NCBI RefSeq assembly: GCF_003663845.1 | Contig: NZ_RCCA01000001.1 | Coordinates: 992,001 to 1,056,000, forward strand | DNA: 64,000 nucleotides | From: Chryseobacterium sp. 7 | GTDB taxonomy: Bacteria; Bacteroidota; Bacteroidia; Flavobacteriales; Weeksellaceae | Direction: 5' to 3' | Shown here: positions 10,466 to 55,841 of the stretch, piece by piece | Position numbering within the stretch: position 1 is the first letter of the stretch | Layout: every line of letters begins with the position of its first letter | Notes under the pieces: generated by a model | Told to the model about the DNA's origin: nothing | The model's database searches: none | What the model saw: the letters and a program-made list of their open reading frames with translations, nothing else | Translations under genes and position numbers: made by a program

Positions 10466-10590
10466 TGTTAGTGGATTCTTATTTTTCGATGCCGCTTATA
10501 AAAATCAATAAAATTGATTCCATCTTTGCCTCCTTAAAATAAGGTAATGTAAAAAATAAAATTTGCGTTTAATGAAAAAGTAAAACAAAA

Positions 10591-10617
10591 AAGACTTATT
10601 AAAAATAGTAAGTCTTT
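10591..10617 (-). terminator. hairpin after a tRNA relic
   Basis: Stem AAGACTTA / TAAGTCTT with an A-run on its left (T-run on the minus strand). It is a diverged copy of the tRNA-Arg terminator found at 10722, 55258 and 55617. Confidence 0.6.
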
Positions 10618-10620
10618 AAG

Positions 10621-10675
10621 TGAGCGCGAAAGGATTCGAACCTTTGACGTCCCGATTGAAATCGGGACGCTCTAT
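10621..10675 (-). pseudogene. degenerate tRNA 3' fragment
   Basis: The T-arm and acceptor 3' strand are identical to tRNA-Arg(TCT) (TGAGCGCGAAAGGATTCGAA on the plus strand), but the anticodon arm is replaced by GTCCCGAT / ATCGGGAC with an aberrant loop. The D-arm fades out after AGAGC and the 5' acceptor half is missing. It cannot be a working tRNA. The same CCCGA-type substitution occurs at 55289. Confidence 0.75.
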
Positions 10676-10721
10676 TTTATGATCTATAAAAAGATTATTG
10701 ATTAAGAAATAAAAACAAAAA

Positions 10722-10748
10722 AAGACTCACTGTTACCAGTAAGTCTTT
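10722..10748 (-). terminator. original tRNA-Arg terminator, now cut off by the element
   Basis: Stem AAGACTCACTG / CAGTAAGTCTT (one mismatch) with loop TTAC and an A-run to the left, so it terminates leftward transcripts. It belongs to the tRNA-Arg whose 5' part now lies at 30.8 kb. Confidence 0.7.
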
Positions 10749-10797
10749 AAGTGAGCGCGAAAGGATTCGAACCTTTGACCGTCTGCTTAGAAGGCAG
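10748..10797. repeat. attL: 50-bp tRNA-Arg 3' fragment
   Basis: Identical to 30767-30816. Homology to the tRNA stops after GGCAG (left continues TGTAAA, right continues ATGCTC), which marks the inner edge of the core. Confidence 0.9.
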
Positions 10798-10945: not shown

Positions 10946-12157
10946 ATGGCAACGATCAAAATTATTCAAAGAACAAAAGCTCTGTCAAATGGGCTTTATC
11001 CTATCTTTTTAAGGATAACTAAAGATAGAAAATCTAAATTCATATCACTGAATTTGTCTTGTGAAAAATCTCAATGGAATGAAACTAAATCTGAGTTCAG
11101 AAAGAGTTACCCTAATTTCAAACAACTTAATCATTCATTAGTTGAGATTAAAAATAGGGCAGAAAAAATTATCTCTGATGTTATAGCTAAAGGAGAAGAC
11201 GTTACATTACATAAGTTTGAGGAATTATTCTTTGATTTTAAGAAAGGAGGTAAAACAGCAGTTAAAGACTTCTGGGAGGAAAAGATAAAGTCACTTGTTG
11301 AGTCCAAAAGTGTAGGTAATGCAAGGGCTTACAGAGATACTAAAAATAGCTTTTTTAAATTCGCTGGAGAAAAGCGACCCTATTACTTCAATGATATTAC
11401 ACCGGAATTACTCAATAGATACGAAGTATTTTTAAGATCAAATGATGGCACAGATGGCGGTATTTCTGTAAAGATGAGAACAATCAGAGCATTGTATAAT
11501 GATGCCATCGAAGAGAATATTGCATCAAAAGAACAATATCCTTTCAAGACCTATAAAATTTCAAAGCTTAAAAATGCTAATAATAAGAGAGCGCTGAATA
11601 TCGATGATATTGAGAAAATTAAAAAATTAAACATTGCCAAACATCCTGATTTAATTGATTCCAGAAATTATTTTATCTTCAGCTACTATACAAGAGGAAT
11701 GAATTTTTATGATATGATGATGTTAGAATGGAATGACATAGAAGTAGATAAAATCAACTACACCAGAAGAAAAACAAAAAGAACTTTTAATATTAAGATA
11801 GTAGAGCCCGTACAAGAAATTTTGGATTATTATAAAAATATCGACAAAAAGACAAAATATATCTTTCCTATTCTAACCTCAGATGAATTAACCCCGATGC
11901 AAATAGAGTATAGGAAGGATAAGACCTTGAAGAAGTTCAATAGAGACTTAAAACGTATAGCTAAAGTTTGCAAGATTGGAACAAAAATTACGAGCTATGT
12001 TGCTCGACATAGTTTTGCTACTAACCTGAAACAAAAAGGAGTTTCTACCGATATTATTTCAGAAGCAATGGGACATCAAAACTTAGCTATTACACAAGCA
12101 TATTTAAAAGAACTTGAAAATGATGTGATTGATGATGCTATGAATAAGCTTCTGTAA
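10946..12157 (+). CDS. tyrosine recombinase / integrase
   Basis: 403 aa, the usual size for Bacteroidota integrases with an arm-binding domain (~1-85), a SAM-like core-binding domain (~100-200) and the catalytic domain. Catalytic residues visible are Arg250 (YYTRGMNF), Arg354 in SYVARHSFAT (the first His of the HxxR box is Tyr, a common variant in this group), His in MGHQN and the Tyr nucleophile in TQAYLKEL. It is placed to act on the 50-bp att core in tRNA-Arg. The start is the ATG at 10946, 16 bases after the repeated GTTGTACCT sites. Confidence 0.93.
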   Translation: MATIKIIQRTKALSNGLYPIFLRITKDRKSKFISLNLSCEKSQWNETKSEFRKSYPNFKQLNHSLVEIKNRAEKIISDVIAKGEDVTLHKFEELFFDFKKGGKTAVKDFWEEKIKSLVESKSVGNARAYRDTKNSFFKFAGEKRPYYFNDITPELLNRYEVFLRSNDGTDGGISVKMRTIRALYNDAIEENIASKEQYPFKTYKISKLKNANNKRALNIDDIEKIKKLNIAKHPDLIDSRNYFIFSYYTRGMNFYDMMMLEWNDIEVDKINYTRRKTKRTFNIKIVEPVQEILDYYKNIDKKTKYIFPILTSDELTPMQIEYRKDKTLKKFNRDLKRIAKVCKIGTKITSYVARHSFATNLKQKGVSTDIISEAMGHQNLAITQAYLKELENDVIDDAMNKLL

Positions 12158-12530: not shown

Positions 12531-13499
12531 ATGCAATTAAAACAATCACAACGACAACAAGTAAAGCTCAGATTAGGATTATCAGGAGCTTCGGGATTCG
12601 GTAAAACGAAGTCAGCCTTATTATTAGCCTTTGGAATGACCCAAGACTGGAGCAAAATAGCAGTAATAGATACAGAAAATTCCTCTGCATCTTTGTACTC
12701 AGACTTAGGAAATTACAATGTGTTGGATTTACAGGCTCCATACTCACCTGAAAGATATATTCAGGCTATTGAATTGTGTGAGAAGTCAGGAATTGAAGTA
12801 ATAATCATTGATTCGGTATCTCATGAATGGAATGGTACTGGTGGGTGTCTTGATATTCATGAGAAGCTTGGAGGGAGATTTCAAGATTGGAGTTTAGTCT
12901 CACCACGTCACCAAGCCTTTATCAATAAGATATTACAGTCAAGCTGTCATATTATTACGACTACCAGAAGAAAGATCGATTATTCTTTAGATATTGGAAG
13001 TAATGGAAAAACCCAAGTAGTGAAGCATGGAACTAAGGAAATCACACGCGATGGCTTCGAGTACGAGCTGACAATTAATTTTGAGTTAATCAATGAAAAT
13101 CATCTAGCTAAGGCTTCAAAAGATCGTACAGGGCTATTCATGAATCAACCTGAATTTATAATCACGTCTGACACAGGCAGAATGATTTTAGACTGGTGTA
13201 ATTCAGGTATTGCAGAAACTGCAAGTTTTGCAACTTCTTCTGAATCCTCTGTCACTTCTCCGAACTCAACAGATTATTTTGGTCCTGGTGAAGAGCGTTT
13301 CCCTATCAGTAACAATAATATAAGTAAAGATAGTATTCTAAATAGAATCAATGCCAGCAATACGATTGCCGAACTTTTGGCTATTTACAAACAGTATCCT
13401 GAATATCAGGACGAATTAAGACCTGACTATGAATCCAGAAAATCGTTCTTAATGAATTTGTCTAATCCTAAAAACTTTTCAACCAATGGACATCATTAA
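12531..13499 (+). CDS. AAA ATPase, Sak4/RecA-like
   Basis: 322 aa. Walker A GASGFGKTKSA near residue 19, Walker B VIIIDSVSHEW near residue 100, and a RecA-like spread of strands with TTTRRKIDY. The size and motifs match phage and island ATPases of the Sak4 type, single-stranded DNA annealing or recombination helpers (AAA_24-like). The C-terminal 70 residues are polar and poorly conserved. The next gene overlaps its end by 14 bases, so the two are translated together. A role in element replication or recombination is likely but not shown. Confidence 0.75.
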   Translation: MQLKQSQRQQVKLRLGLSGASGFGKTKSALLLAFGMTQDWSKIAVIDTENSSASLYSDLGNYNVLDLQAPYSPERYIQAIELCEKSGIEVIIIDSVSHEWNGTGGCLDIHEKLGGRFQDWSLVSPRHQAFINKILQSSCHIITTTRRKIDYSLDIGSNGKTQVVKHGTKEITRDGFEYELTINFELINENHLAKASKDRTGLFMNQPEFIITSDTGRMILDWCNSGIAETASFATSSESSVTSPNSTDYFGPGEERFPISNNNISKDSILNRINASNTIAELLAIYKQYPEYQDELRPDYESRKSFLMNLSNPKNFSTNGHH

Positions 13500-14700
13500 T
13501 AAAATCAGACCTGCAACCTTAGAAGAAGCTTTTGAACTCAGACCTGCACAAAATATTAAAGAGATTTCTCTGTATGAAAGCAGGATGAACAATGATACAG
13601 CTCATCATTCAAATCATCATTATTTTGTTCCTGGTACTGTTCCAACTGCAACAGAACCAAGAGAACAGATAGAATCAGGGCAGGAGAATATTGAAAATCA
13701 GGAAACATCTCAGGAGAGCGATAGCTCTCTTCAAAGAAATGAAGTTTACCAGGAACATAAACAATCAGAAGCGAAACAGTATGAAGACAAGCCTTTTATT
13801 GAAGCTAATACACAAGCGGTCAATCTCTATCATTTAAAGAATGACTGTATTATTCCAGTATTCAGCAAAGATAACGAAAAAACAATTGCTCATCAGGAAT
13901 TCATTGATGTGGTGATGAATGCAGCACAAAAGGTATTTCCTATGCAGAATATTACAGAACCTGAAATAAGGGTGTCACACCAGATTAAAGGTAGGACACC
14001 AGATGCTATACACCTAAGTGTAAAAGACCTATTGGATCATCAGAAAACCATTTATTATGAAAGAATGGCATTTATTATCAGGATTCCTGGTATCACAGAT
14101 GTAGTGAATGGAAATGAACTATCACTTACAATAGGTGGTGTCAGAAGCTATAATTTGGAGAACCTTTACAATAAGAAAACATTGGAACGAATGAAGTTTT
14201 TCATTGGTTTTCAGAATCAGGTATGCTGTAACTTATGTGTATCAACAGATGGGTTCAAGGAAGATATGAGGGTGTCCGGTACTCAGGAGTTATATTCCAA
14301 AACATTGGAAGTTATGCGAAATTATAATGCAGAGCTTCATTTAAAGCAGATGAAAGAACTTACCCATGATTCTCTCTCTGAACATCAGTTCGCGCAGCTT
14401 ATAGGAAGAAGCAGGTTGTATCAACACTTACCAAAACTTGAGAAACAGAATATCCCTTTGCTTAATTTCAATGACAGCCATATCAATACGATGGCAAAGG
14501 ATTATTATGAGGATAAGAACTTTTGCAGGCAGGAAGATGGAAATATCAATTTGTGGTCAGTGTATAACCTCTTCACGCAAGCCAATAAGTCATCATATAT
14601 AGATACTTTCCTGGATAGGAATCTGAATGCCCTTGAATTTACAAAAGAGATTCAGAAAACGCTCAATGGTAATTCTGATTACTGTTGGTTTTTGAGCTAG
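13486..14700 (+). CDS. DUF3871 family protein
   Basis: 404 aa. The N-terminal ~110 residues are low-complexity and Gln/Glu/Ser-rich. The conserved part starts near residue 140 with VSHQIKGRTPDAIHLSVKDL, then YYERMAFIIRIPGI, SLTIGGVRSYNLENLY and IGFQNQVCCNLCVSTDGF, which I recognise as the DUF3871 signature of Bacteroidota mobile elements. Function unknown. It overlaps the ATPase gene and ends at a strong terminator, so the pair is one transcription unit. Confidence 0.8.
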   Translation: MDIINKIRPATLEEAFELRPAQNIKEISLYESRMNNDTAHHSNHHYFVPGTVPTATEPREQIESGQENIENQETSQESDSSLQRNEVYQEHKQSEAKQYEDKPFIEANTQAVNLYHLKNDCIIPVFSKDNEKTIAHQEFIDVVMNAAQKVFPMQNITEPEIRVSHQIKGRTPDAIHLSVKDLLDHQKTIYYERMAFIIRIPGITDVVNGNELSLTIGGVRSYNLENLYNKKTLERMKFFIGFQNQVCCNLCVSTDGFKEDMRVSGTQELYSKTLEVMRNYNAELHLKQMKELTHDSLSEHQFAQLIGRSRLYQHLPKLEKQNIPLLNFNDSHINTMAKDYYEDKNFCRQEDGNINLWSVYNLFTQANKSSYIDTFLDRNLNALEFTKEIQKTLNGNSDYCWFLS

Positions 14701-14936: not shown

Positions 14937-15791
14937 ATGAAAACAAAATTATTTTCGCTGGCACTGTTAGTGTCATCATTTACATTTGCACAAAGCTGGA
15001 ATACTACTGGGAATTCAGGGACTAATCCATCCAATAATTTCATTGGGACTACGGACAACCAACCGTTAGTTTTTAAAGCTAATAATAACCCATCACTTCG
15101 TATACTACCTAATGGATCTTTAAGAGTTGGACTCAATGATACGGATACCAATCCCCTTTCTACACTAAGAGTCTATAATAATGAAAATACTCTTCTTGAA
15201 ATTGCTAATTCACAAGGAAGATTTCAAATTGGAAAATCTTCATGTAATGGCTGTTATGGTGGTGGTGTAGGAGATACTGTCTTAAGAAATCTTGACGTTT
15301 CTCATAATATCATTATCGCTCAACCTAATGATGGTAATGACGGTTCCACCTATTTTGGTATTCAGGATGCTTATAACGGAACCTGGGTCAAGTTCTTCAA
15401 TAATGCCATTGCCAGATTTGATGGTAAAATTAAGGCTAAAGAAGTTGAAGTAAAAGCCAATGTATGGGCTGATTATGTGTTTAAAAAAGAATACCAGCTT
15501 AGATCTTTAGAGGATGTTGAAAAACATATTAATGAAAAAGGGCATTTGCCTAACATTCCCACTACTCAGGAAGTACTTGAAAACGGAATTAACGTTGCAG
15601 AGATGAATTCCAAACTCCTTGAGAAGATTGAAGAGTTAACACTCTATTCAATTAACCAGAATAAACAAATAAAACAACAGGCAGAACAGCTTAAGCAACT
15701 TCAGTCCGAAAATAAGGTTTTGAAAACTCAATCCAAAAAAATTGAGAAATTGGAACAGCAAATTCAGCAACTATTATCAACACAAAAATAA
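14937..15791 (+). CDS. secreted tail-fibre-like protein with C-terminal chaperone-like and coiled-coil region
   Basis: 284 aa with a signal peptide (MKTKLFSLALLVSSFTFAQ). The middle is beta-rich and Asn/Gly-rich, with a PLSTLRVYNNENTLLEI repeat typical of fibre shafts. From ~175 comes the motif ADYVFKKEYQLRSLEDVEKH, then HLPNIPTTQEV and EMNSKLLEKIEELTLY. This is the endosialidase-chaperone-like end common in Bacteroidota surface fibres. It closes with a Gln-rich coiled coil. First gene of the Rhs operon (6-base gap to the next), so a structural or targeting partner of the Rhs protein is plausible (inference). Confidence 0.75.
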   Translation: MKTKLFSLALLVSSFTFAQSWNTTGNSGTNPSNNFIGTTDNQPLVFKANNNPSLRILPNGSLRVGLNDTDTNPLSTLRVYNNENTLLEIANSQGRFQIGKSSCNGCYGGGVGDTVLRNLDVSHNIIIAQPNDGNDGSTYFGIQDAYNGTWVKFFNNAIARFDGKIKAKEVEVKANVWADYVFKKEYQLRSLEDVEKHINEKGHLPNIPTTQEVLENGINVAEMNSKLLEKIEELTLYSINQNKQIKQQAEQLKQLQSENKVLKTQSKKIEKLEQQIQQLLSTQK

Positions 15792-15797
15792 TCACAA

Positions 15798-16256
15798 ATG
15801 AAAACAAAATTACTATCACTATCATCTCTGATGATAGGCTTCTTCGGATTTTCCCAAACCGAAGTCTATTTCAAATATGATGAAGCCGGAAACCAACGAT
15901 ACAGGGGAACTGATTTAGCTGGGAAAACAGCAGAAAAGTCTGTACAAACTGTAGTTGAAACAGTTTCCGCCATTCAAACTATGGATGAAACTTCATTTTG
16001 GAAACAGATAAGATTATATCCCGTTCCTGTTAATGATATTTTAACAATAGACTGGACCGAAGAAGTAGACGGACTTATTGACAATGTTTCACTCTATCAG
16101 CACAGTACTGTTCACTGGAAATTCCAGCAGCAGAATACACCTGATCTTAACAAGCAAGTCAAGATTAACATGACGGGGTATGACTGGGGAGTATATGTTG
16201 TACGCTTTACATTAAAAGACGGTAGGATTTTTAGTAAAAATATCACTAAACGATAA
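15798..16256 (+). CDS. small secreted protein with T9SS type A sorting domain
   Basis: 152 aa. A signal peptide ends at FGFSQ and is followed by TEVYFKYDEAGNQRYRG, which resembles a single Rhs/YD repeat. The last ~80 residues are a type A sorting domain: IRLYPVPVNDILTIDW, then YDWGVYVVRFTLKDGR and KNITKR at the very end. Such domains direct export through the type IX system and cell-surface attachment. It sits 5 bases before the Rhs gene, which itself has no sorting domain, so it may help anchor or export that protein (inference). Confidence 0.8.
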   Translation: MKTKLLSLSSLMIGFFGFSQTEVYFKYDEAGNQRYRGTDLAGKTAEKSVQTVVETVSAIQTMDETSFWKQIRLYPVPVNDILTIDWTEEVDGLIDNVSLYQHSTVHWKFQQQNTPDLNKQVKINMTGYDWGVYVVRFTLKDGRIFSKNITKR

Positions 16257-16261
16257 GATTC

Positions 16262-19200
16262 ATGAAACGTTACGATAAGAAAATGCAGCTATTTTCAACA
16301 ATTATACTGTCCCTGTGTTCAGTACTGGGCTTTTCACAGACCATACTGTATCAGGCAGAAAGTACCTCAAGAACGGTACAAGATCCGCAATCGGTGGTGT
16401 TAGCTCAGGGATTTTATGCTTCTTCCAGCTCATCGAATCCCTTTGTAGCTAAAATAGGTCCAACTACAGAAAATCCGGGAGGTGGTCCTGTGGACTCCAA
16501 TGCCGGATCAACCAACCCATCAGGAACGACAGCACCGGAGGGGAAAAGCTTTCATGACACTAAGGGGAATATTGAAGTCAATGGAGCCGGGCAATTGCAA
16601 TTTACTTTGCCTATTGCTTTACCACCTGGAGTGAAAAGTGTAGCACCACAAATTAATCTTATATATACTAGTGGTTCATCTAACGGAATTTCCGGTTATG
16701 GTTGGAATTTATTAGGATTAACAGCTGTGTCAAGAACCGGAAGAAGCGTAGAAAAAGATGGAGAAGCTAAAGGTGCGCAATTAGATGAATCAGATTATTA
16801 TAGCTTTAACGGACAAAGGCTAATTCTAAAATCAGGAGAATATGGAAAAGATGGAGCAGAATATGTTACTGAAAAATATTCTAATGTCAAAATAAAATCA
16901 ATTGGAACCATTGCAGGACAAATGTGGAAAGGTCCCGAATATTGGGAGGTTACTTTTGAGGATGGTTCACAGGCATGGTATGGGGCAACCACCTCGGGGC
17001 TTAGTAATGCTAGAACTCCTATTGAATACAATATTGTAAAATGGAAAGATAGTCAGGGAAATTATATCACTTATAATTATTTGCAGACAGGTCTTTCAAA
17101 TATTACTACGATTTCAAGCATTCAATGGGGAGGTAATGAAACATTAAATAAGCCTCATTTTAACAAAATGGATTTCACCTATATTAGTAGAAGTTTAACT
17201 GAGGATTCTTATGTTGGAGGAGTTCGTTTTTTACAAACTCAACTTTTATCTGAAATTAAAGTAAGCTCCAATGGAAGCCAATTTAAAAAATATACAATCG
17301 AGTACCTGCAAAATGGGACGAATTATGAGGTCGTTGATAAAATAACGGAATACAATGCTGATAATAATGCTGCTAATCCGGTCGCTTTTACTTATCCAGC
17401 TCCTACACAACCTGTCTTAGAATTTTCAGACAATAATGTAGATAGCTTTGAAAACGTAAAACTGACAGGAGATTTTAACGGTGATGGATATCTGGATTTC
17501 TCATTGAATAGTGGTGTTGTAAAGCTTGGTGGGCTCAATAATACCTTTACTGATATTTCTACAGGTAAAACCTTTAATTCAGAAGCTAAAGTTGTCAATA
17601 CATTGTTAGATGAAGAAGGGCAAGTCTATAATGGGAATGGAATTGTTCAATATGAAGGAGGTAAAATTACAGGCTATATTTTCAGAGATAACCTATTTGT
17701 AAAAGTATTTGAAAAGTTTGTTTATGACGAATCAACTTGTACAAAAAGTAATTATCCTCCACCTGCTGGCTGTAAAATGTTATCTCCTAAATTAAATGAA
17801 GGAGATCTTAACGGGGATGGTATTTCAGATATATTTTTTACATTAGAAAAGGAAGTTTGTCAGTGGGTTTATGATCCTAACTGCGTCAATAAAACATCCA
17901 ATGACACGACTAACCGCCCTCCTCCATGCAGTATACTTGAATGCAATACTTATGCTATAGGAAGCTTCATTGTTGATTTAAAAAATGCTAACAATCCTTT
18001 ATCTACCTATACCCTTGATTCAGGGATCAATGAAAATTCTTATTATAAGCAACAATATCTGGATATTGATGGTGATGGTAAAGTAAATATTATTGATGTT
18101 TCCAATACAGCCTATACCGTATTTGAGTTTATAAAAACGGCTCCTAATCAGTATCTTAAGAAGATAAGATTCTCCGGTAATTTAGCGGAAACAAAAGCAC
18201 CGGAATTTCCTGTTTTGTTTGGGGACTTTAACGGTGACGGAAACCTTGATTTTACCATTCCAACTACAGATACACAGGAAAAAGATAATTGGAGATTCTA
18301 TTTGGGAACAGAAAAGGGATTTTCCAATTTTCTAAAAACGGACTTTTTGAAATACAGAAAGCCTGAAGATTATAAAAACAGTAGTTACCCTACTTTTAAT
18401 ATATACCAGCATGTGTATTCGGTGTCAGACATCAATAAAGATGGGAAATCAGATATTGTGCATATTCTCCCTTTTAACAAGGCGGGGCAAGTAAATGGAA
18501 GCGGACTTATACTTAACCGATACTTTGGCTATACTATTGATGCTTATACTGCTAACGGAGCTGCTACAAATGGCAGTCTTGATTTCTTTACCAGTTATAC
18601 TTATGGAGGATATAATTATGTAACCTGGGATGTTGGCAATTTTACGTTATTTTCCCCGATCACTTCACAGGTTAAAGTTAATAATAACTATTATGATGTA
18701 TTTTTATTCTGGAAAGAAAGGATGCACAAGCTTAAATCTCCCTCTTCGGTTGGAAAGCTGTCCCGGGTACAAACAATTACCCAGGGAGGAATTACTACAT
18801 CAGCAGATTATTTGGAGGTAATTCCGAATAATCCTCTTAACCCTAATTTTTATCAAAAGGTTAAAAAAGAGTATTATCCATATTTTTCTTTAAGCAGGGT
18901 TGACCAATCCTATGCTGTATCCCAGTTAAGACAAGAAGGAAGAAAGCAGGATTTCCGATACAGGGGAATGACCGGACATATGCAGGGAAAGGGAATGATG
19001 GGCTATCATCAGTCTGCCCGCTCGTCTTGGTATGCTGATGGGTTTGAAAATACCAAAATCTGGTCAGGAGCAGAAACCGATCCTCTTTTTGATGGAATTC
19101 CGGTAAAAGAATGGAGCATTAAAACCAATGATGAGTCTAAAATATTCCCTGCTGATATTTCTGAAAACAACACCCAGTTATTAAGTTTTAAATCTACTGT

Positions 19201-22200
19201 TTACCAAACAGATAAGCTATTAAACGGACAAATTGTAACAGGAGTAATTGCTGATACGGATAAACCGAAAGTTGTAACAGCTACTGTTCCCACAAGTACT
19301 AAAACAAAGGACTTCCTGAATGGTACATTAACAAATACTTCTATCACTTATGGGGATTATTATCTTCCAAAGCAAAGTGTATCGAATGTTAATAATGGAT
19401 ATGCCATAACAACTTCTAATTTTGAATATATTCATAATTTCTCAGGAATTGGAGCGGATTACTTTGTAGGTCGTCCTCAATCTAAAACCGATCAAATCTC
19501 AGCTTACGGAGATACCAAATCGGCAAAAGAAGAGTTTACCTATGAAAACAATCTCCTTAGAACCTTAAAAACGTGGAACAGAGATAATACCGGATATTTG
19601 CTCGAAACATACAATTACGATGGTTTCGGTAATATCACCGGAAAAACAATCAGCAATAGCGTAGATTCTCAAACTCAAACAGAAACAAGTCTGTATGAGT
19701 CTAAAGGAAGGTTTGTAGAGAAAAAGACAGATAATTTAGGATTAGAAACTAATATTGAGTACAATGACTGGGGACAGATCAAAAAGCAAACCGACCCGTT
19801 AGGAAATATCCTTACCAATACCTATGATGCATGGGGTAAACTCCTTACTTCCAAAACCAATTTGGGAGGAACAGTCACCTATCAGTACGAGAGAGATACT
19901 CAATCAAATATTATCGTAACCCAATACGATCCGGATGGAGATATTTCAAAAAAATATACCGACAGATTGGGTCAGGATTATAAAACCTCTACCAAAGCAT
20001 TCGGACAGGGGCAATTTATCTCTAAAGAAGTTCAGTATGATGTTTTAGGAAGAAAAATCAAAGAATCCGAGCCTTATTTTGATGGTCAGAGTCCAAGTCA
20101 ATGGAATACCATTGCATATGACGATACCGTGTTTCCTACCACCAAGGCAACTGCTACTGGGTTCAATGGTAAGCAGATGGAGACTACAGTTTCAGGCTTG
20201 ATAACAACCGCCAAAGAACTTAACGGCTATGGAAGAACCAGCTCTAAAACTACTGATGCCTTAGGCAATGTAATTTCTTCAACAGATAAAGGCGGAACCA
20301 TTACGTTCTCATATAATGCAGCCGGAGAACAAATTAAAGCCCAATATGCCGAAAATATTGTAACAACAAAATACGATTCATGGGGGAGAAAATCAGAATT
20401 TAATGATCCATCCAATGGATTGTATAAATATGAATACAACGGATTCGGTCAGCCAAAGAAAATTATCAGCCCGAAAGGAACCAAAGAATATACTTATAAT
20501 AATCTGGGGCAGCTGATAACTCAAAATGAAATTTCAACAACAGACGGAGGACAGGCTACCAACAAAACAATTTCTTTTACTTATGATAATAAAGGAAGGG
20601 TAATTTCAAAAGGTGGAACATCCAAAGGAAAAGCGTACAGCTCCAATATTTCTTATGATCCGCAAGGAAGAGTGCTTTCGTCCTCAGAAAGCAGTAACGG
20701 GAAATACTTTATTCAGAAAGGCATTACTTATGATGATAAAGCAAGGGTAATTTCTTATGAAAAACAGTTATATTCTTCCGGTGTTTTAACCAAAGTTCAG
20801 ATAGAAAATGTATATAGTGCCTGGAATGGAGAGCTTTATCAGATAAAAGATAAGGTAACAGGCAAGAGCCTGTGGGAGCTGAAAGAAACCAATGCTAAAG
20901 GTCAGGTGTTAAAAGCTAATTTGGGAGCTGCAAATGTTAATAATGCTTATGATACCAATGGCTTTTTAACCACTGTAAACCATTCTTCTGACGTAAAACC
21001 ATCTATTCTACAACTTTCCTATTCATTTAACGCCATAAAAAATGAATTGAATAGTAGAACAACGGGAGGAGATTTCAATATTGTAGAATCTTTTGATTAC
21101 GATGATAATAACCGTTTAGTGAACTGGACAAATCCGATAACAGGCATTAAACCATCTGTAAACAGAAACGTTTATGACATAAAAGGCAGAATCATGGAGA
21201 ACGATCAGGTAGGAACCTTGAAGTATGAAAATTCTGCCAAGATCTACCAGCCAACCGGAATGACCCTGAATGCTGCAGGAACACAAAATTATAACAATGA
21301 CCTGATCCAGAGCATTGCGTATAATGAAAACAACGATCCTGTATTCATCGACGGAATGAAGGGAGATGTAGCTTTTCAATATGGCTTAACCAGCATGAGA
21401 CAAAGGGTTACCTACGGAGGTAATTTTAGTATTGATAGCGACGGTAAGTTCACAAAATTCTACAGTGAAGATGGAAGTTTTGAAGTCATCAAAGACAACA
21501 CCACAGGAAAGGAAAAGCATATTATCTATATTGGTGGAAGCCCGTATGAAGCAAATATTGTATATTTAAAGAACTTTACGGAGACTAGCGGTTCTTACAA
21601 ATTTTTGCATAAAGATTATATTGGTAGTGTTTTAGCAATAAGTGATGAAGCTGGAAATAAACTAGAACAAAGACATTTTGATGCATGGGGTAATTTTACA
21701 CACTTGCAGATAGGAAATGGCGCGATTATTACAGACAAGAATAGTATTGATACTACTTCGTTATTAATAGACAGAGGATACACCAGTCATGAACATTTTG
21801 CAGAAGTAGGAATCATCCACATGAACGGTAGGTTATATGATCCACTATTAAGGAGATTCTTAAATGCTGATGAAAATATTCAGGATCCTTACAATACCCA
21901 GAATTACAATAAGTATGGGTATGTGATGAACAATCCTTTGATGTATAATGATCCGAGTGGTGAATTCTGGCAGATTTTTGCAATTCCTATTGTTAAAGCG
22001 TTACTTTTTGCTGTAGTCTCTTACACTGCTACTGTTTTGATTACTGGTGCGAAGTTTAATATTCTTAACTTATATTCTAGTATTGTAATGAGTTTGATAA
22101 GTGCGGGGATAACAACTGTTATAGGGGATGTCTTTTCTACTGCAACTGCAAGTATAGGAAATGAAGCTTTAAAAAGCCTCGTCCATGCAGGAGTACAGGG

Positions 22201-22990
22201 AACATTAAGCTTTATGCAGGGTGGCAACTTTTTCACTGCAGCAGCAAGTGCATTTTTATCAAGCTTTGCTTCTTTTGGATATGCTAAAGCTATTGGAGAA
22301 GCTGCATATAGCGGTGTAGGACAAGTTGCGCTTGGAATGTTTTCTGGGGGTGTGGGATCTGCCCTTACAGGAGGAAATTTCTGGGATGGTGTGAATATTG
22401 GAGGGATTGTGGCGTTATTTAATCATGCAATGCATAGAATGGATGGTGGACTAGGAGATGGAGGCAAGAAAAAATCTAACTATAAAATACCAAGAAAGAC
22501 AGTAAATTTTGAAGCTTCATCACTTGCATTACCTTTTGGATCAGTAGGAGGAAGAGATAATGATCCATATGTTCCAGATTTTGATTGGTATACTATAAGA
22601 GGTACTATAAATTTAATTGGCAATGAATTATCAGTTGTAGCATATGGAAGCAGTGCAAATACTAACATAACTAAACATTACAGAGGTTCAGTTATAGTGG
22701 AAGGTTCATCACCATATGGTATTTCAACATTTAGATATGAGAAATCTTTAAATATTTTAAAAGATGTAAATGATTTTCGTCCAGCAGATCATAAATATAT
22801 TGGTAGAGCTGATTTTGTTATACCTTCTGGTACTATGAGTATAAACGTTAGAGTAACTGCTGGTTATACGGCGACGACTAATATGGACACCTCTAATGTA
22901 GTGCCTTTTTATCCATTAGGAAGAGCTACATTTAATTATACTTTTTCATCATATAAAGGGGGCATGAATCAATATCCTTTAATAAAATAA
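16262..22990 (+). CDS. giant secreted Rhs-repeat protein with variable C-terminal tip, polymorphic toxin candidate
   Basis: 2242 aa. Signal peptide to ~26 (VLGFSQ); SpvB/TcaC-like N-terminal region ~95-290 (GQLQFTLPIALPPG, GYGWNLLGL); FG-GAP/VCBS calcium-loop repeats, e.g. GDFNGDGYLDF (~403), GDLNGDGISDI (~517), GDFNGDGNLDF (~655); YD/Rhs repeats ~1110-1700; Rhs core ~1780-1900 ending GRLYDPLLRRFLNADE and NNPLMYNDPSGEF (~1896-1901). After the core come a hydrophobic stretch and GGNFWDGVNIGGIVALFNHA (~2037-2056), the usual pre-toxin linker. The last ~160 residues match no toxin family I recognise. The Rhs shell normally encloses and releases this tip. A small membrane protein gene follows after 5 bases as immunity candidate. 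The 3' part becomes AT-richer, as in swapped toxin modules. Confidence 0.85.
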   Translation: MKRYDKKMQLFSTIILSLCSVLGFSQTILYQAESTSRTVQDPQSVVLAQGFYASSSSSNPFVAKIGPTTENPGGGPVDSNAGSTNPSGTTAPEGKSFHDTKGNIEVNGAGQLQFTLPIALPPGVKSVAPQINLIYTSGSSNGISGYGWNLLGLTAVSRTGRSVEKDGEAKGAQLDESDYYSFNGQRLILKSGEYGKDGAEYVTEKYSNVKIKSIGTIAGQMWKGPEYWEVTFEDGSQAWYGATTSGLSNARTPIEYNIVKWKDSQGNYITYNYLQTGLSNITTISSIQWGGNETLNKPHFNKMDFTYISRSLTEDSYVGGVRFLQTQLLSEIKVSSNGSQFKKYTIEYLQNGTNYEVVDKITEYNADNNAANPVAFTYPAPTQPVLEFSDNNVDSFENVKLTGDFNGDGYLDFSLNSGVVKLGGLNNTFTDISTGKTFNSEAKVVNTLLDEEGQVYNGNGIVQYEGGKITGYIFRDNLFVKVFEKFVYDESTCTKSNYPPPAGCKMLSPKLNEGDLNGDGISDIFFTLEKEVCQWVYDPNCVNKTSNDTTNRPPPCSILECNTYAIGSFIVDLKNANNPLSTYTLDSGINENSYYKQQYLDIDGDGKVNIIDVSNTAYTVFEFIKTAPNQYLKKIRFSGNLAETKAPEFPVLFGDFNGDGNLDFTIPTTDTQEKDNWRFYLGTEKGFSNFLKTDFLKYRKPEDYKNSSYPTFNIYQHVYSVSDINKDGKSDIVHILPFNKAGQVNGSGLILNRYFGYTIDAYTANGAATNGSLDFFTSYTYGGYNYVTWDVGNFTLFSPITSQVKVNNNYYDVFLFWKERMHKLKSPSSVGKLSRVQTITQGGITTSADYLEVIPNNPLNPNFYQKVKKEYYPYFSLSRVDQSYAVSQLRQEGRKQDFRYRGMTGHMQGKGMMGYHQSARSSWYADGFENTKIWSGAETDPLFDGIPVKEWSIKTNDESKIFPADISENNTQLLSFKSTVYQTDKLLNGQIVTGVIADTDKPKVVTATVPTSTKTKDFLNGTLTNTSITYGDYYLPKQSVSNVNNGYAITTSNFEYIHNFSGIGADYFVGRPQSKTDQISAYGDTKSAKEEFTYENNLLRTLKTWNRDNTGYLLETYNYDGFGNITGKTISNSVDSQTQTETSLYESKGRFVEKKTDNLGLETNIEYNDWGQIKKQTDPLGNILTNTYDAWGKLLTSKTNLGGTVTYQYERDTQSNIIVTQYDPDGDISKKYTDRLGQDYKTSTKAFGQGQFISKEVQYDVLGRKIKESEPYFDGQSPSQWNTIAYDDTVFPTTKATATGFNGKQMETTVSGLITTAKELNGYGRTSSKTTDALGNVISSTDKGGTITFSYNAAGEQIKAQYAENIVTTKYDSWGRKSEFNDPSNGLYKYEYNGFGQPKKIISPKGTKEYTYNNLGQLITQNEISTTDGGQATNKTISFTYDNKGRVISKGGTSKGKAYSSNISYDPQGRVLSSSESSNGKYFIQKGITYDDKARVISYEKQLYSSGVLTKVQIENVYSAWNGELYQIKDKVTGKSLWELKETNAKGQVLKANLGAANVNNAYDTNGFLTTVNHSSDVKPSILQLSYSFNAIKNELNSRTTGGDFNIVESFDYDDNNRLVNWTNPITGIKPSVNRNVYDIKGRIMENDQVGTLKYENSAKIYQPTGMTLNAAGTQNYNNDLIQSIAYNENNDPVFIDGMKGDVAFQYGLTSMRQRVTYGGNFSIDSDGKFTKFYSEDGSFEVIKDNTTGKEKHIIYIGGSPYEANIVYLKNFTETSGSYKFLHKDYIGSVLAISDEAGNKLEQRHFDAWGNFTHLQIGNGAIITDKNSIDTTSLLIDRGYTSHEHFAEVGIIHMNGRLYDPLLRRFLNADENIQDPYNTQNYNKYGYVMNNPLMYNDPSGEFWQIFAIPIVKALLFAVVSYTATVLITGAKFNILNLYSSIVMSLISAGITTVIGDVFSTATASIGNEALKSLVHAGVQGTLSFMQGGNFFTAAASAFLSSFASFGYAKAIGEAAYSGVGQVALGMFSGGVGSALTGGNFWDGVNIGGIVALFNHAMHRMDGGLGDGGKKKSNYKIPRKTVNFEASSLALPFGSVGGRDNDPYVPDFDWYTIRGTINLIGNELSVVAYGSSANTNITKHYRGSVIVEGSSPYGISTFRYEKSLNILKDVNDFRPADHKYIGRADFVIPSGTMSINVRVTAGYTATTNMDTSNVVPFYPLGRATFNYTFSSYKGGMNQYPLIK

Positions 22991-22995
22991 CTAAA

Positions 22996-23289
22996 ATGAA
23001 AAATCTATCTTATTCAATAAGTATGGTATTATATATCATTGGAATATATATAATTTACAATTACATATTTTTATTTTTATATAAAATTTGCGTGTTTGGC
23101 ATAAATAAAGGTTTAATAGTCTCTTTTATTCTTTATTTTATATCTATTATATTAGGTGTTTTACTCATTAAATACAATAAAAAAATCCTTTATCTAATTA
23201 TACCAGTAAGTAAACGAATTAATGCACAAATAAATATTTTTGAAATATCAATTATTACTTTTTTAATATTTGAGCTTTTTTTATACTAA
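22996..23289 (+). CDS. small membrane protein, candidate immunity protein to the Rhs tip
   Basis: 97 aa with three hydrophobic segments (around 8-33, 40-58 and 83-97). The start is 5 bases after the Rhs stop, the usual place for the cognate immunity gene. Very AT-rich. A membrane immunity protein would suit a toxin that acts at the membrane or in the periplasm (inference). The next 48 codons in the +1 frame (to about 23437) are also open and hydrophobic, so the gene may be frameshifted; see findings. No family recognised. Confidence 0.5.
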   Translation: MKNLSYSISMVLYIIGIYIIYNYIFLFLYKICVFGINKGLIVSFILYFISIILGVLLIKYNKKILYLIIPVSKRINAQINIFEISIITFLIFELFLY

Positions 23290-23415
23290 AAAATATATTT
23301 TTTTATTTTTCATCTTCTATAAATGATCCTTTCTTAAAATATAATATAATTTTTAGTTTAATTAAAATCATAGCAATTGTAGTAATATTTTCTTTTAGAA
23401 AAAAAATTGTAAAAT

Positions 23416-23769
23416 ATGTTACTTATAAAATTTAAATTCAAAGCAAATTATCAATATGTCATTTTAAAATTAGAAGAGGAGGGATATATCTTTTCATATA
23501 ATGATGATAAACTTTCTATCTTCTGTAATGAAGATTGTTATTTAAAAATTAATAAATATGTAGAAAGTTTGAAAATCGATGAAAATGAGATTGAATCGGA
23601 ATATTTTTCACATGATGAGTACGTAAATTGGCATTTTCATAAATATAAACTTTCCGATAAAACAGGAAAACGTCCTTTCTTTTTGTTTAGTAATGCATAT
23701 AAAAGATTAGTCTGGCTATATTTATTTATAATATTTTTAGCATTATTTTTTGCCTATTTTTTCAGTTAA
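23416..23769 (+). CDS. hypothetical protein with C-terminal membrane anchor
   Basis: 117 aa. The first ~90 residues are soluble, acidic and Tyr/Lys-rich, and the last ~22 are one hydrophobic segment (LYLFIIFLALFFAYFFS). It lies between the immunity candidate and a displaced Rhs-core relic, which suggests it belongs to the Rhs toxin-immunity array, perhaps as a second immunity protein. I do not recognise the family. Base composition is much more AT-rich than the Rhs core. Confidence 0.45.
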   Translation: MLLIKFKFKANYQYVILKLEEEGYIFSYNDDKLSIFCNEDCYLKINKYVESLKIDENEIESEYFSHDEYVNWHFHKYKLSDKTGKRPFFLFSNAYKRLVWLYLFIIFLALFFAYFFS

Positions 23770-23773
23770 GCTA

Positions 23774-23857
23774 GGTAATGTTTTAGCCATTAGTGATGAA
23801 GCAGGAAACAAACTAGAAAAAAGGGAAGTCTTCAAAAACAGGAAAGGCTACCATTAA
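23774..23857 (+). pseudogene. displaced Rhs-core relic
   Basis: 27 codons reading GNVLAISDEAGNKLEKR, then an unrelated tail and a stop. It matches the core of the full Rhs protein (GSVLAISDEAGNKLEQR, DNA at about 21627-21670). It has no start of its own. This is what is left of an older Rhs C-terminal cassette. An IS982-type element was inserted 40 bases downstream. Confidence 0.8.
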
Positions 23858-23903
23858 TATTATCAAATTCCTGTATCAATTGATGCTGGAATTTTTATTT
23901 TAC

Positions 23904-24878
23904 ACTCGTAGTGCATTATCAAACTAACGCAATTTTAATATTGTTCATTTTTCTATTAAAGACAAAAACATTTACAAATTGAATAAAAGTTAGTGCTGTT
24001 ATTTTGCTCAATATCCTTGTCTTAAAGCCATTAAATGATTTTGCATAGTTGCTTCTAATTTTAAATTGATCACAAAGTTGAGAAAACAGGGTCTCAATTC
24101 TCTTTCTCGATTTTCTGAAAATATATTTCTGTTTTTGGTAATTTTTTTGATTGATTCTCATTGGTGTATCCAGTTTTATATTTGCATAATTGAACAAGTC
24201 AGATTGTACCTGAGCGGACAAATAACCTCGATCTCCGATCAATGTACAGTCATTAATTTGATGTTTTATATCCTGCAAAAAATGAATATCATGAATGCTT
24301 GCCGTAGAAATGTCAAAACTTTGAAAAACCCCGGAAACAGAACATATTGCATGCAGTTTGTAACCGTAATAATAACTGGACTGGGAAGCGCAATAACCTC
24401 TACTTGGAAATGAAAATTCACTTTCTTTACAAATTTTGGAGCGTTTTGCTCTTGCATTTCTACAAATTTCCAAAGGCATAGAGTCAATAATAAAAACGTT
24501 TTCAATCTCATTAAACCGAACAACTATAAGCTTTCGAATCCTTTCCAAATGCAGGAATAATTTCCTCTTTCTACGGTTGTAAACACTTCTTTCGATCATT
24601 CCGTTTAATTTTGAATTTGACAGATGTCTAAATAGCTGGTATTCTGAATCTATCGATAAATATTCTGCAGAAATATTAAGAGCAACAATCTCTAAATCAG
24701 ACAGTTTTGGCTTAATTGGTTTGAAATAAAAGTTCTCATCTGAGATTAACTTCTTTAATTCATTTAAAATAAAATTGTAAATTGCATCTAGGTTATTCAT
24801 TATGTATCAGATTGATAGTCAATACAATATACGAATTTTTCGTATTATGAATAACCTTTTTTATAATGCACTACGGGT
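23904..24878. mobile_element. IS982-family insertion sequence
   Basis: 975 bp. The ends are near-perfect inverted copies: left ACTCGTAGTGCATTAT, right (inverted) ACCCGTAGTGCATTAT. It is flanked by a perfect 7-bp target duplication ATTTTAC (23897-23903 and 24879-24885), so the insertion is recent and unrearranged. It contains one transposase gene on the minus strand. Confidence 0.93.
23919..24800 (-). CDS. IS982-family transposase
   Basis: 293 aa, intact and full length. DDE residues are visible in FIIDSMPLE (~106), LIGDRGYLS (~190) and KRIETLFSQL (~236). YYYGYKLHAI and the N-terminal LSDLEIVALNISAEYL match IS982-type enzymes. It catalyses transposition of the surrounding 975-bp element. The minus-strand start is near the right end of the IS. 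Confidence 0.92.
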   Translation of the reverse strand: MNNLDAIYNFILNELKKLISDENFYFKPIKPKLSDLEIVALNISAEYLSIDSEYQLFRHLSNSKLNGMIERSVYNRRKRKLFLHLERIRKLIVVRFNEIENVFIIDSMPLEICRNARAKRSKICKESEFSFPSRGYCASQSSYYYGYKLHAICSVSGVFQSFDISTASIHDIHFLQDIKHQINDCTLIGDRGYLSAQVQSDLFNYANIKLDTPMRINQKNYQKQKYIFRKSRKRIETLFSQLCDQFKIRSNYAKSFNGFKTRILSKITALTFIQFVNVFVFNRKMNNIKIALV

Positions 24879-24885
24879 ATTTTAC

Positions 24886-25166
24886 GTCTTTATGTATGTA
24901 AGAAACTATAAGACCCCGGAATGTATATAAAAGTGCTATTGTATCTTTCCGAAAAAATTTCTGAAAAAAAATTCAACAACCTTTTTTACGTGTAATTCTC
25001 CCTGTCCTTCAACCCCCACGAGTTCTCAGCAGGGAAGTACCCGCCCCATCAGTAATGATGTAAGAAAAATTTCGCAGGCAGTACTACAATCAAGGTGATA
25101 GCTGATGTATTATTGCTCACAATTCTTATGTTCCTGGTGCTTTATCTAACTCAAAAATCAACTACA
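24886..25166. other. intergenic stretch after the IS
   Basis: 281 bases with no supported gene. The stretch at 25010-25060 is more GC-rich and has no counterpart elsewhere in the window. Reading frames to 25095 would extend the next gene, but with a hydrophobic leader unlike the rest of it. Confidence 0.5.
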
Positions 25167-25746: not shown

Positions 25747-26184
25747 ATGAATAAGTTAATGGAAATATCTGTTACATATAATACAGGCAATCATGAAAAG
25801 ATAAGGATAAACAGCCATAAGAAAGCCTACAGTCTGGTTATTGAAAACTGGAACATGGGTACTATTGAATTTCAGGAAGAATGCAAGGTAATTATGATGA
25901 ATAAAGGAAACTTTGTATTAGGCATATACAACGTCTCAAAAGGCGGTATAGACAGTTCAGTAGTAGACATAAGAATTATTCTGGCTGTAGCTCTTAAATG
26001 CAACGCTACTCAACTGATACTGGTACATAATCATCCTAGTGGAAATCTCAAACCCAGCGGTTCAGACCAAACAATAACCAAGAACTTAAAGAAAGCTTGC
26101 GAACTGCTGAATGTATCACTTTTAGACCATTTGATTATCACCAGGAACAGTTTTTATAGTTTTAATGAAGAGAATAGGTTTTAA
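25747..26184 (+). CDS. RadC-family JAB-domain protein
   Basis: 145 aa. The metalloprotease-like JAB/MPN signature is complete: LVHNHPSGNLKPSGSDQTIT (His-x-His-Pro-Ser-Gly, then Ser and Asp as ligand), with DHLIITRNSFYSF at the end. It is shorter than housekeeping RadC because the N-terminal UPF0758 helical part is missing, as is normal for copies on islands and phages. Function is unproven. Start at ATG 25747 just after the inverted repeat. Confidence 0.88.
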   Translation: MNKLMEISVTYNTGNHEKIRINSHKKAYSLVIENWNMGTIEFQEECKVIMMNKGNFVLGIYNVSKGGIDSSVVDIRIILAVALKCNATQLILVHNHPSGNLKPSGSDQTITKNLKKACELLNVSLLDHLIITRNSFYSFNEENRF

Positions 26185-30766: not shown

Positions 30767-30816
30767 TAAGTGAGCGCGAAAGGATTCGAACCTTTGACCG
30801 TCTGCTTAGAAGGCAG
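30767..30816. repeat. attR: 50-bp core within the intact tRNA-Arg
   Basis: Identical to 10748-10797. Confidence 0.9.
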
Positions 30817-30844
30817 ATGCTCTATCCAGCTGAGCTACGCACCC
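30771..30844 (-). tRNA. tRNA-Arg(TCT)
   Basis: 74 nt, no encoded CCA. Acceptor GGGTGCG pairs with CGCGCTC, D-arm GCTCAGCTGGATAGAGC, anticodon arm TCTGC-CTTCTAA-GCAGA (anticodon TCT), T-arm AAAGG-TTCGAAT-CCTTT. Cotranscribed with tRNA-Pro upstream. Its 3' half is the integration site of the element. Confidence 0.95.
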
Positions 30845-30876
30845 ATTAAATAGTTTTGAGAAAACTATTAAAACAG

Positions 30877-30951
30877 TCGGGGCGGCAGGATTCGAACCTG
30901 CGACCTCCTGGTCCCAAACCAGGCGCGATGACCGGACTACGCTACGCCCCG
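30877..30951 (-). tRNA. tRNA-Pro(TGG)
   Basis: 75 nt. Acceptor CGGGGCG/CGCCCCG, anticodon arm CCTGG-TTTGGGA-CCAGG. First gene of a two-tRNA unit with tRNA-Arg. Confidence 0.95.
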
Positions 30952-30993
30952 AGGGTGTCATCAGTAACGATATTTACTTCGTTTTTGCGGTTG

Positions 30994-55191: not shown

Positions 55192-55257
55192 TCTTGTATT
55201 AATAGCTTCTCTACATAAGATTTTTATTTTTGATCAAAGAAAACCATGGAAAACAAA

Positions 55258-55286
55258 AAAGACTCACTGTTACCAGTAAGTCTTTA
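55258..55286 (-). terminator. tRNA-Arg-type terminator, copy next to the tRNA relic
   Basis: Stem AAGACTCACTG / CAGTAAGTCTT with loop TTAC, same as 10722-10748. T-run on the minus strand. Confidence 0.7.
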
Positions 55287-55288
55287 AG

Positions 55289-55643
<355 letters not shown>

Positions 55644-55645
55644 TG

Positions 55646-55719
55646 TGAGCGCGAAAGGATTCGAACCTTTGACCGTCTGCTTAGAAGGCAGATGCTCTAT
55701 CCAGCTGAGCTACGCACCC
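55646..55719 (-). tRNA. tRNA-Arg(TCT), second copy
   Basis: Identical over 74 nt to the gene at 30771-30844, with the same acceptor, D, anticodon (CTTCTAA) and T arms. Third gene of the Ser-Pro-Arg unit. Confidence 0.95.
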
Positions 55720-55751
55720 ATTAAATAGTTTTGAGAAAACTACTAAAACAG

Positions 55752-55826
55752 TCGGGGCGGCAGGATTCGAACCTGCGACCTCCTGGTCCCAAACCAGGCG
55801 CGATGACCGGACTACGCTACGCCCCG
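55752..55826 (-). tRNA. tRNA-Pro(TGG), second copy
   Basis: Identical over 75 nt to 30877-30951. The 32-base spacer to tRNA-Arg also matches except for one base. Confidence 0.95.
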
Positions 55827-55841
55827 AATATATAAGAAGAG

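Follow-up and report, generated by a model that had tools for sequence, protein, structure and literature searches.

Results

An Rhs operon with a small sorting-domain partner

The window analysed here, a 64,000-nucleotide stretch of the genome of Chryseobacterium sp. 7 (Bacteroidota, Flavobacteriales; contig NZ_RCCA01000001.1, positions 992,001 to 1,056,000), carries a forward-strand operon in which a large Rhs gene is preceded by a gene for a small protein that combines a tyrosine-aspartate (YD) motif with a sorting domain of the type IX secretion system (T9SS). The first gene (14937..15791, +) encodes a fibre-like protein of 284 amino acids (aa) with a signal-like N-terminus and a coiled-coil-like C-terminus, both recognised by eye, and its product matched no family in Pfam, NCBIfam or PHROG. 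It is followed by the gene for the small protein (152 aa; 15798..16256, +), a predicted T9SS sorting adaptor made up of a signal-like stretch, the YD motif, a linker and the sorting domain, and then by the gene for the Rhs carrier protein (2242 aa; 16262..22990, +), behind which lie two small open reading frames (ORFs). This is the layout that a preliminary description of the DNA, made from the letters alone, had claimed, and all of its parts were found.

The Rhs protein starts with a signal-like N-terminus and continues through SpvB, FG-GAP repeats and YD repeats to the Rhs-associated core (TIGR03696; residues 1836-1900, 21767..21961, +); the families SpvB, FG-GAP, RHS_repeat and Rhs_assc_core were all matched, and the Rhs family scores were 80.8 bits for PF05593, 61.2 for TIGR01643 and 49.4 for TIGR03696. 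When the protein was scanned at E <= 0.001 against NCBIfam, a library which we take to contain the TANFOR model, TIGR01643 and TIGR03696 alone were listed. As judged from its sequence, the reading of the locus as an Rhs polymorphic toxin operon is well supported. The same genome holds three more Rhs operons with adaptors (L042, L043 and L044), and the Rhs genes of L043 and L044 are interrupted.

Design and conservation of the small protein

The YD motif of the 152-aa protein, TEVYFKYDEAGNQRYRG (residues 21-37; 15858..15908, +), is near-invariant, is predicted to form a hairpin and has the general form F-x-YD-x-AGNQ-x-x-R. It is preceded by the signal-like stretch MKTKLLSLSSLMIGFFGFSQ, identified by inspection only, and the T9SS type A sorting domain (PF18962) occupies residues 73-148 (16014..16241, +). 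Homologues repeat this order of signal-like stretch, motif, linker and sorting domain, with a linker that varies in both length and sequence. Of 145 distinct short adaptors, 140 contain a pattern of the type F-x-YDxxGN, compared to 1 of 14,500 shuffled sequences, and all 145 contain a second pattern, in which S is allowed for N and Q and R are added, and which was defined after the five misses were seen to have S for N. Among 18 divergent adaptors sharing 24-52% identity with that of the window, the columns invariant beyond the start methionine were F25, D28, G31, N32, Q33 and R36 in the motif and P75, P77, W86, Y133 and K151 in the sorting domain; the sorting domain itself was matched (E <= 10) in 21 of the 22 adaptors of set A1. 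The T9SS-sorted partner with a YD-like motif, to which the preliminary description had drawn attention, is conserved across loci and not incidental.

Linkage to Rhs genes across the order

A scan of public genomes for the adaptor family gave 103 hits, 80 of which were kept as 79 distinct loci, and an Rhs stretch lay <=700 bp downstream in all 79. When the 22 adaptors of the window and of loci selected by Rhs were added, Rhs was downstream in 101 of 101, where some loci represent the same genes as Rhs-fetched loci and a few of the Rhs are fragments; a homologue of the 284-aa protein was encoded upstream in 74 of these 101. Sampling from the Rhs side is the less biased test of linkage, and here an adaptor-type partner was located upstream in 18 of 20 Rhs-selected loci, the other two lying at contig ends. 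As a control, stretches were fetched around cargo proteins that have the sorting domain only: none of 20 contained Rhs, and a loose YD pattern occurred in two of the 20 regions, distant from the sorting domain. An order-wide search found some adaptor match in 105 of 395 genomes, many of them to the sorting domain only, and 40 distant adaptor-like loci were hand-picked as full length (39 from this search and one from the Rhs search). The next large ORF was an Rhs of 2,016-2,351 aa in 38 of the 40; of the exceptions, L202 is cut off by the end of its contig, and L209 has a 328-aa ORF first and the Rhs ORF further on. Partners that join a YD motif to a sorting domain beside Rhs are thus present in many genomes of the order.

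Six of the 18 Rhs-selected loci with a partner (L212-L217), which form a clade at 32-33% identity, have a different one of about 390-403 aa in which a YD motif stands shortly before the sorting domain, and a lamin-tail domain was found in both of those scanned by Pfam. Three partners of this type, when scored against a profile of the Rhs YD repeats, gave p values of 0, 0.005 and 0.045. The type apparently represents a separate build of the same idea. In another class, locus L280 (L280:1-3279) contains three tandem small YD genes with GNR for GNQ, at least one of which, a full-length one, has a sorting domain; they lie downstream, not upstream, of what by eye looks like the C-terminal end of an Rhs protein and the gene after it.

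Exchange of the C-terminal tip

The closest Rhs relatives follow the window's protein as far as residue 2060-2062 before they diverge, others part from it earlier, and a paralogue in the same genome shares about 85% identity through residue 2061 and is different beyond. The exchangeable C-terminal tip, a candidate toxin domain predicted to be all-beta, comprises residues 2063-2242 (22448..22990, +); the tip to which the preliminary description had pointed has a length of about 180 residues instead of the approximately 160 aa given at the time. While the Rhs protein had matches in 30 of 59 genomes searched (its own counted in), the tip region was matched in one, its own. Across the loci, 111 distinct complete Rhs C-termini fell into 59 tip families when the last 150 residues were joined by single linkage at E < 1e-3; an invariant tip, the outcome that the preliminary description had named as speaking against its reading, was not what we found. 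The comparison of Rhs ends among relatives that it had called for shows a differing tip, also on the matching island of genome G032.

Among 5.8 billion proteins searched with the tip region there was a single match, P0001, the tip of which is 41% identical and the whole protein 75%. Two further relatives came from loci that had been retrieved for a different purpose, L103 of C. herbae (tip 41% identical to that of the window) and L073 of Chryseobacterium sp. Bi04 (38%), where the Rhs carrier is 56% identical for L103 and 43% identical in the first aligned stretch for L073. The relatives found are three in total, all on other Rhs proteins, and one tip family sits on several cores. No described family was matched by the tip in the libraries searched, in keeping with its earlier characterisation as unrecognised, and its structure was predicted as all-beta with a mean predicted local distance difference test (pLDDT) score of 70.5, the L103 form reaching 77.4. 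Elsewhere the same position is occupied by other domains: HExxH occurs within the last 220 residues of 40 of the 111 C-termini, and the colicin-type family PF09000 was above cut-off in one of 20 C-termini scanned with Pfam. A conserved core joined to 59 tip families, with HExxH and colicin-type tips among them, is the signature of polymorphic toxins, and these comparisons make tip exchange on a conserved carrier a well-supported conclusion.

Small genes and relics behind the tip

Five bases after the Rhs stop codon starts the gene for a hydrophobic protein of 97 aa (22996..23289, +), the small membrane protein of the preliminary description and a candidate immunity protein, for which no relative was found in the searches of this analysis. 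After a gap of 126 bases comes an ORF for a protein of 117 aa (23416..23769, +) with the motif WHxxKY...PFF and a C-terminal hydrophobic segment, probably a second gene of the cassette; scans of the small downstream genes matched no known family. In L103 and L073, the related tip has two overlapping genes behind it, for a hydrophobic protein of 146 and 150 aa and a second protein of 96 and 94 aa, respectively. The 117-aa protein resembles the second gene product of L073 (score 64 versus 29 +/- 5.4 for shuffled sequences, reached by 0 of 1000) and that of L103 (score 52, reached by 6 of 1000). By tblastn over the fetched loci, the L073 match to the 117-aa protein was the best outside its own genome, at an E value of 0.57 only, and a HMMER search of the 59 genomes gave as best relative an unlinked 154-aa protein of G010 (L041:1492-1956; 35% identity over residues 4-93, E 1.1e-5), which may show where the 117-aa family originated. 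A profile built from four proteins of this group recovers its four members by construction, the next hit being L135 (E 0.0077), and no other convincing member appeared in the fetched loci.

Behind the 117-aa ORF, a 50-nt relic of the Rhs core (23774..23823, +), 88% identical to 21623-21672, would mark the junction of a lost older cassette. The core copy that had been described as 27 codons long is real, and it is shorter: 17 codons are homologous, and the remaining 10 up to the stop are not core. The likeness exceeds chance, given its E value of 1.7e-10 within the window and the core pieces downstream of other Rhs genes; such stretches behind an intact Rhs ORF were flagged in eight rows, of which six loci remain when L059 (a second full Rhs) and L127 (counted as the same as L056) are left out, and L055 is a seventh. 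A 34-nt flank (23863..23896, +), the likely 3' end of the lost cassette, is also found downstream of Rhs in L089 (97%, 34 nt) and in L043 of the same genome (94%, 32 nt). The core piece and this flank are, as read from the DNA, what we regard as clear relics of an older cassette. In L056, L057 and L127, the intact Rhs gene is followed by an array made up of partial core, tip and small genes, and L057 repeats similar small genes.

The tRNA island

The Rhs operon (14937-22990) lies inside an island delimited by a perfect 50-bp direct repeat, the att-like left copy of which (10748..10797) is identical to the right copy (30767..30816); the latter covers the 3' end of a tRNA-Arg gene (30770-30844, minus strand). 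Together with a tyrosine integrase near the left end (10946..12157, +; PF00589, PF13102 and PF17293), this bears out the tRNA island of the preliminary description. The host genome is 5.09 Mb in size. Behind the relics lies an IS982-family insertion (23904..24878, -; transposase 23919-24800) with inverted repeats at both ends, and the operon is flanked by a DUF3871 gene (13486-14700) and a RadC-like gene (25747-26184, assigned by eye), both of which have counterparts on the matching island (L051) of genome G032. That island is 90.6% identical to the window over 2.9 kb of its right flank. Identity is 77.7% for its left part together with the beginning of the Rhs gene and 77.1% for the later part of that gene, the central portion of which aligns poorly; the block of tip and small genes (about 21967-24950) does not align except for the core relic. 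The tRNA-Arg and tRNA-Pro genes are duplicated (30767-30952 and 55642-55827; 186 bp, 98.9% identical), and further partial copies of the tRNA region lie near 10582-10797, 55250-55356 and 55603-55711. These copies point to multiple integrations at one tRNA site, perhaps of two elements in tandem.

Discussion

A T9SS signal needs a free C-terminus, whereas the C-terminus of an Rhs protein is the predicted toxin, and the signal would therefore be supplied on a second chain. The host genome encodes SprA (TIGR04189, 2062.7 bits), it has no match to the sheath protein VipB (PF05943) of the type VI secretion system (T6SS), which among 14 control genomes is matched in E. coli, and a sorting domain was found in none of 20 Rhs C-termini scanned. 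On this basis we propose that the signal is provided in trans, and we consider it moderately probable that the 152-aa protein is a T9SS sorting adaptor for Rhs which docks by its YD motif. The broader concept of a split signal used by flavobacteria, in which the Rhs sheet receives a YD beta-hairpin from the small protein and the same protein contributes the sorting domain in trans, as a general route for toxins that need to keep their own C-terminus free, is put forward tentatively, as a nearly balanced matter. In this scheme Sec would export all three operon products, the hairpin would dock by joining the spiral Rhs sheet as one more YD strand, and the complex of adaptor and Rhs would be led by the sorting domain through SprA, the type IX translocon. 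The Rhs protein would then be displayed on the surface or released, after which release of the tip would allow it to attack the envelope of a neighbour, with protection conferred by the 97-aa protein and perhaps by the 117-aa protein.

Several observations weigh against the docking adaptor. The signal peptides were judged by eye, the sorting domain of the 152-aa protein is barely at the Pfam cut-off (Por_Secre_tail, 27.1 bits against 27) and that of two lamin-tail partners is below it, and the SprA pore may be too narrow to admit an Rhs shell that has folded. Conservation of the motif is partly selected, as the motif was one of two search patterns and the profile matches were selected for being full length. 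No family hidden Markov model recognises the adaptor motif as a YD repeat, and the scores of the adaptors against the Rhs YD-repeat profile are only moderate (median z 2.24, top z about 5.8), with 20% of the 145 reaching a score attained by 0 of 200 shuffles; among the 20 cargo proteins used as controls, two (L245, p 0.01; L248, p 0.04) match the scores of many adaptors. Finally, genes may be linked because they are co-regulated or because of anchoring at the surface, rather than because of docking.

One alternative view is that the small protein is a T9SS cargo in its own right, for instance a surface anchor, cap or receptor for the assembled Rhs protein, which would cross the outer membrane in some other way. 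T9SS substrates are often surface-anchored, the linker of the small protein is variable in length, and the gene of the 284-aa fibre-like protein is linked to the same loci; however, we find this view unlikely, as no T6SS sheath gene was found in the host genome, and the invariant part of the small protein is an Rhs-like motif that points to contact with Rhs itself. The SpvB domain and FG-GAP repeats would also suit a Tc-like complex aimed at eukaryotic hosts and not at rival bacteria. Against such a use stand the hypervariable tips, which in the tip family of the window come with small genes of their own behind them, the colicin-type tip of one relative, and immunity-like neighbours that make sense only if sister bacteria are targeted, and we consider it improbable.

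The nature of the tip can be weighed in the same manner. Fold comparisons, which included the question of a leukocidin/hemolysin-fold pore former, revealed no clear structural relative, and this counts against our main reading. The weak matches include an adhesin domain (PsrP), which, like the all-beta prediction, would suit a structural or adhesive domain devoid of toxicity. We hold such a domain to be very unlikely, given that the same slot is filled in relatives by HExxH or colicin-type tips and that the tip occurs on different cores with small genes following. The tip of the window is likely to be toxic, as far as comparison of sequences can indicate, and its target is likely the cell envelope, a target suggested only by the membrane-protein neighbours. 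The first gene after Rhs encodes an N-terminal hydrophobic stretch or a lipobox in 49 of 108 cases and another hydrophobic segment in 16; by the same simple heuristic the remaining 43 lack a membrane or signal feature, which counts against an envelope target in general, so that not every tip need act there. As to protection, immunity to the present tip might come from the 97-aa protein alone, with the 117-aa ORF as the immunity gene of an older, displaced cassette, the assignment made in the preliminary description. The ORF does directly precede the core relic, at some distance from the 97-aa gene, and since its best HMMER relative is unlinked in G010, likeness alone does not tie it to the tip. 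Still, its resemblance to the second genes behind the two related tips, those of L073 and L103, makes it more likely that the 117-aa gene belongs to the present tip cassette; its attribution to the displaced cassette appears rather doubtful to us.

Rhs effectors of the T6SS have a YD-repeat shell, a core, a variable tip and a small gene behind the tip, all of which are likenesses to the operon described here; in contrast, the Chryseobacterium genome has no detected sheath gene, and its Rhs protein has a signal-like N-terminus, as seen by eye, with SpvB. The association of Rhs with T9SS sorting genes is not in itself new. In the available portions of their report, Steele and Moran (2021; PMC8125069) describe that most Apibacter rhs genes adjoin genes with T9SS type A sorting domains and that many of the Rhs proteins contain SpvB and TcdB domains, regarding an association with the T9SS as probable and antibacterial use as possible; the same portions contain no motif-linker-sorting design, order-wide linkage or docking mechanism. 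Along similar lines, a further study (PMC12645872), in the part available, assigns to the T9SS effectors three of the 27 Rhs genes that A. raozihei expresses more highly. A comparable case is that of the TANFOR polymorphic toxins of Bacteroidetes, about 87% of which have a predicted Sec signal and the neighbourhoods of which are enriched for T9SS sorting domains, with T9SS export offered as speculation (Jana, Salomon and Bosis, 2020; PMC7073777, as excerpted). There, according to the same excerpts, the carrier is TANFOR and not Rhs, and the neighbours are SprB-repeat and sorting-domain proteins, with no dedicated small YD protein. Orphan toxin/immunity modules are known from contact-dependent inhibition (CDI) and Rhs systems (Poole et al., 2011; PMC3150448), where, in the sections available, tip and immunity gene are likewise swapped on a conserved carrier and displaced pieces remain downstream; those systems are CDI and other Rhs, while the window retains only the 50-nt core piece and a short flank, behind a T9SS-linked Rhs carrier. 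The open-licence literature searched, to the extent that its text was accessible, yielded no description of the motif-plus-sorting design.

According to the portions of two of these papers at hand, the T9SS stands alone among two-step secretion systems in being widespread in Bacteroidetes, and its role in the delivery of antibacterial toxins is considered speculative or not well understood (PMC7073777; PMC8125069). If our proposal is true, the adaptor would show that the T9SS can accept cargo in trans, and it would make the question of toxin delivery by this system answerable by a single deletion. The YD motif and sorting domain beside Rhs would also provide a sequence tag by which such toxins could be found, and the tip of the window contributes a small beta-domain family, not named to date, which has its own small genes.

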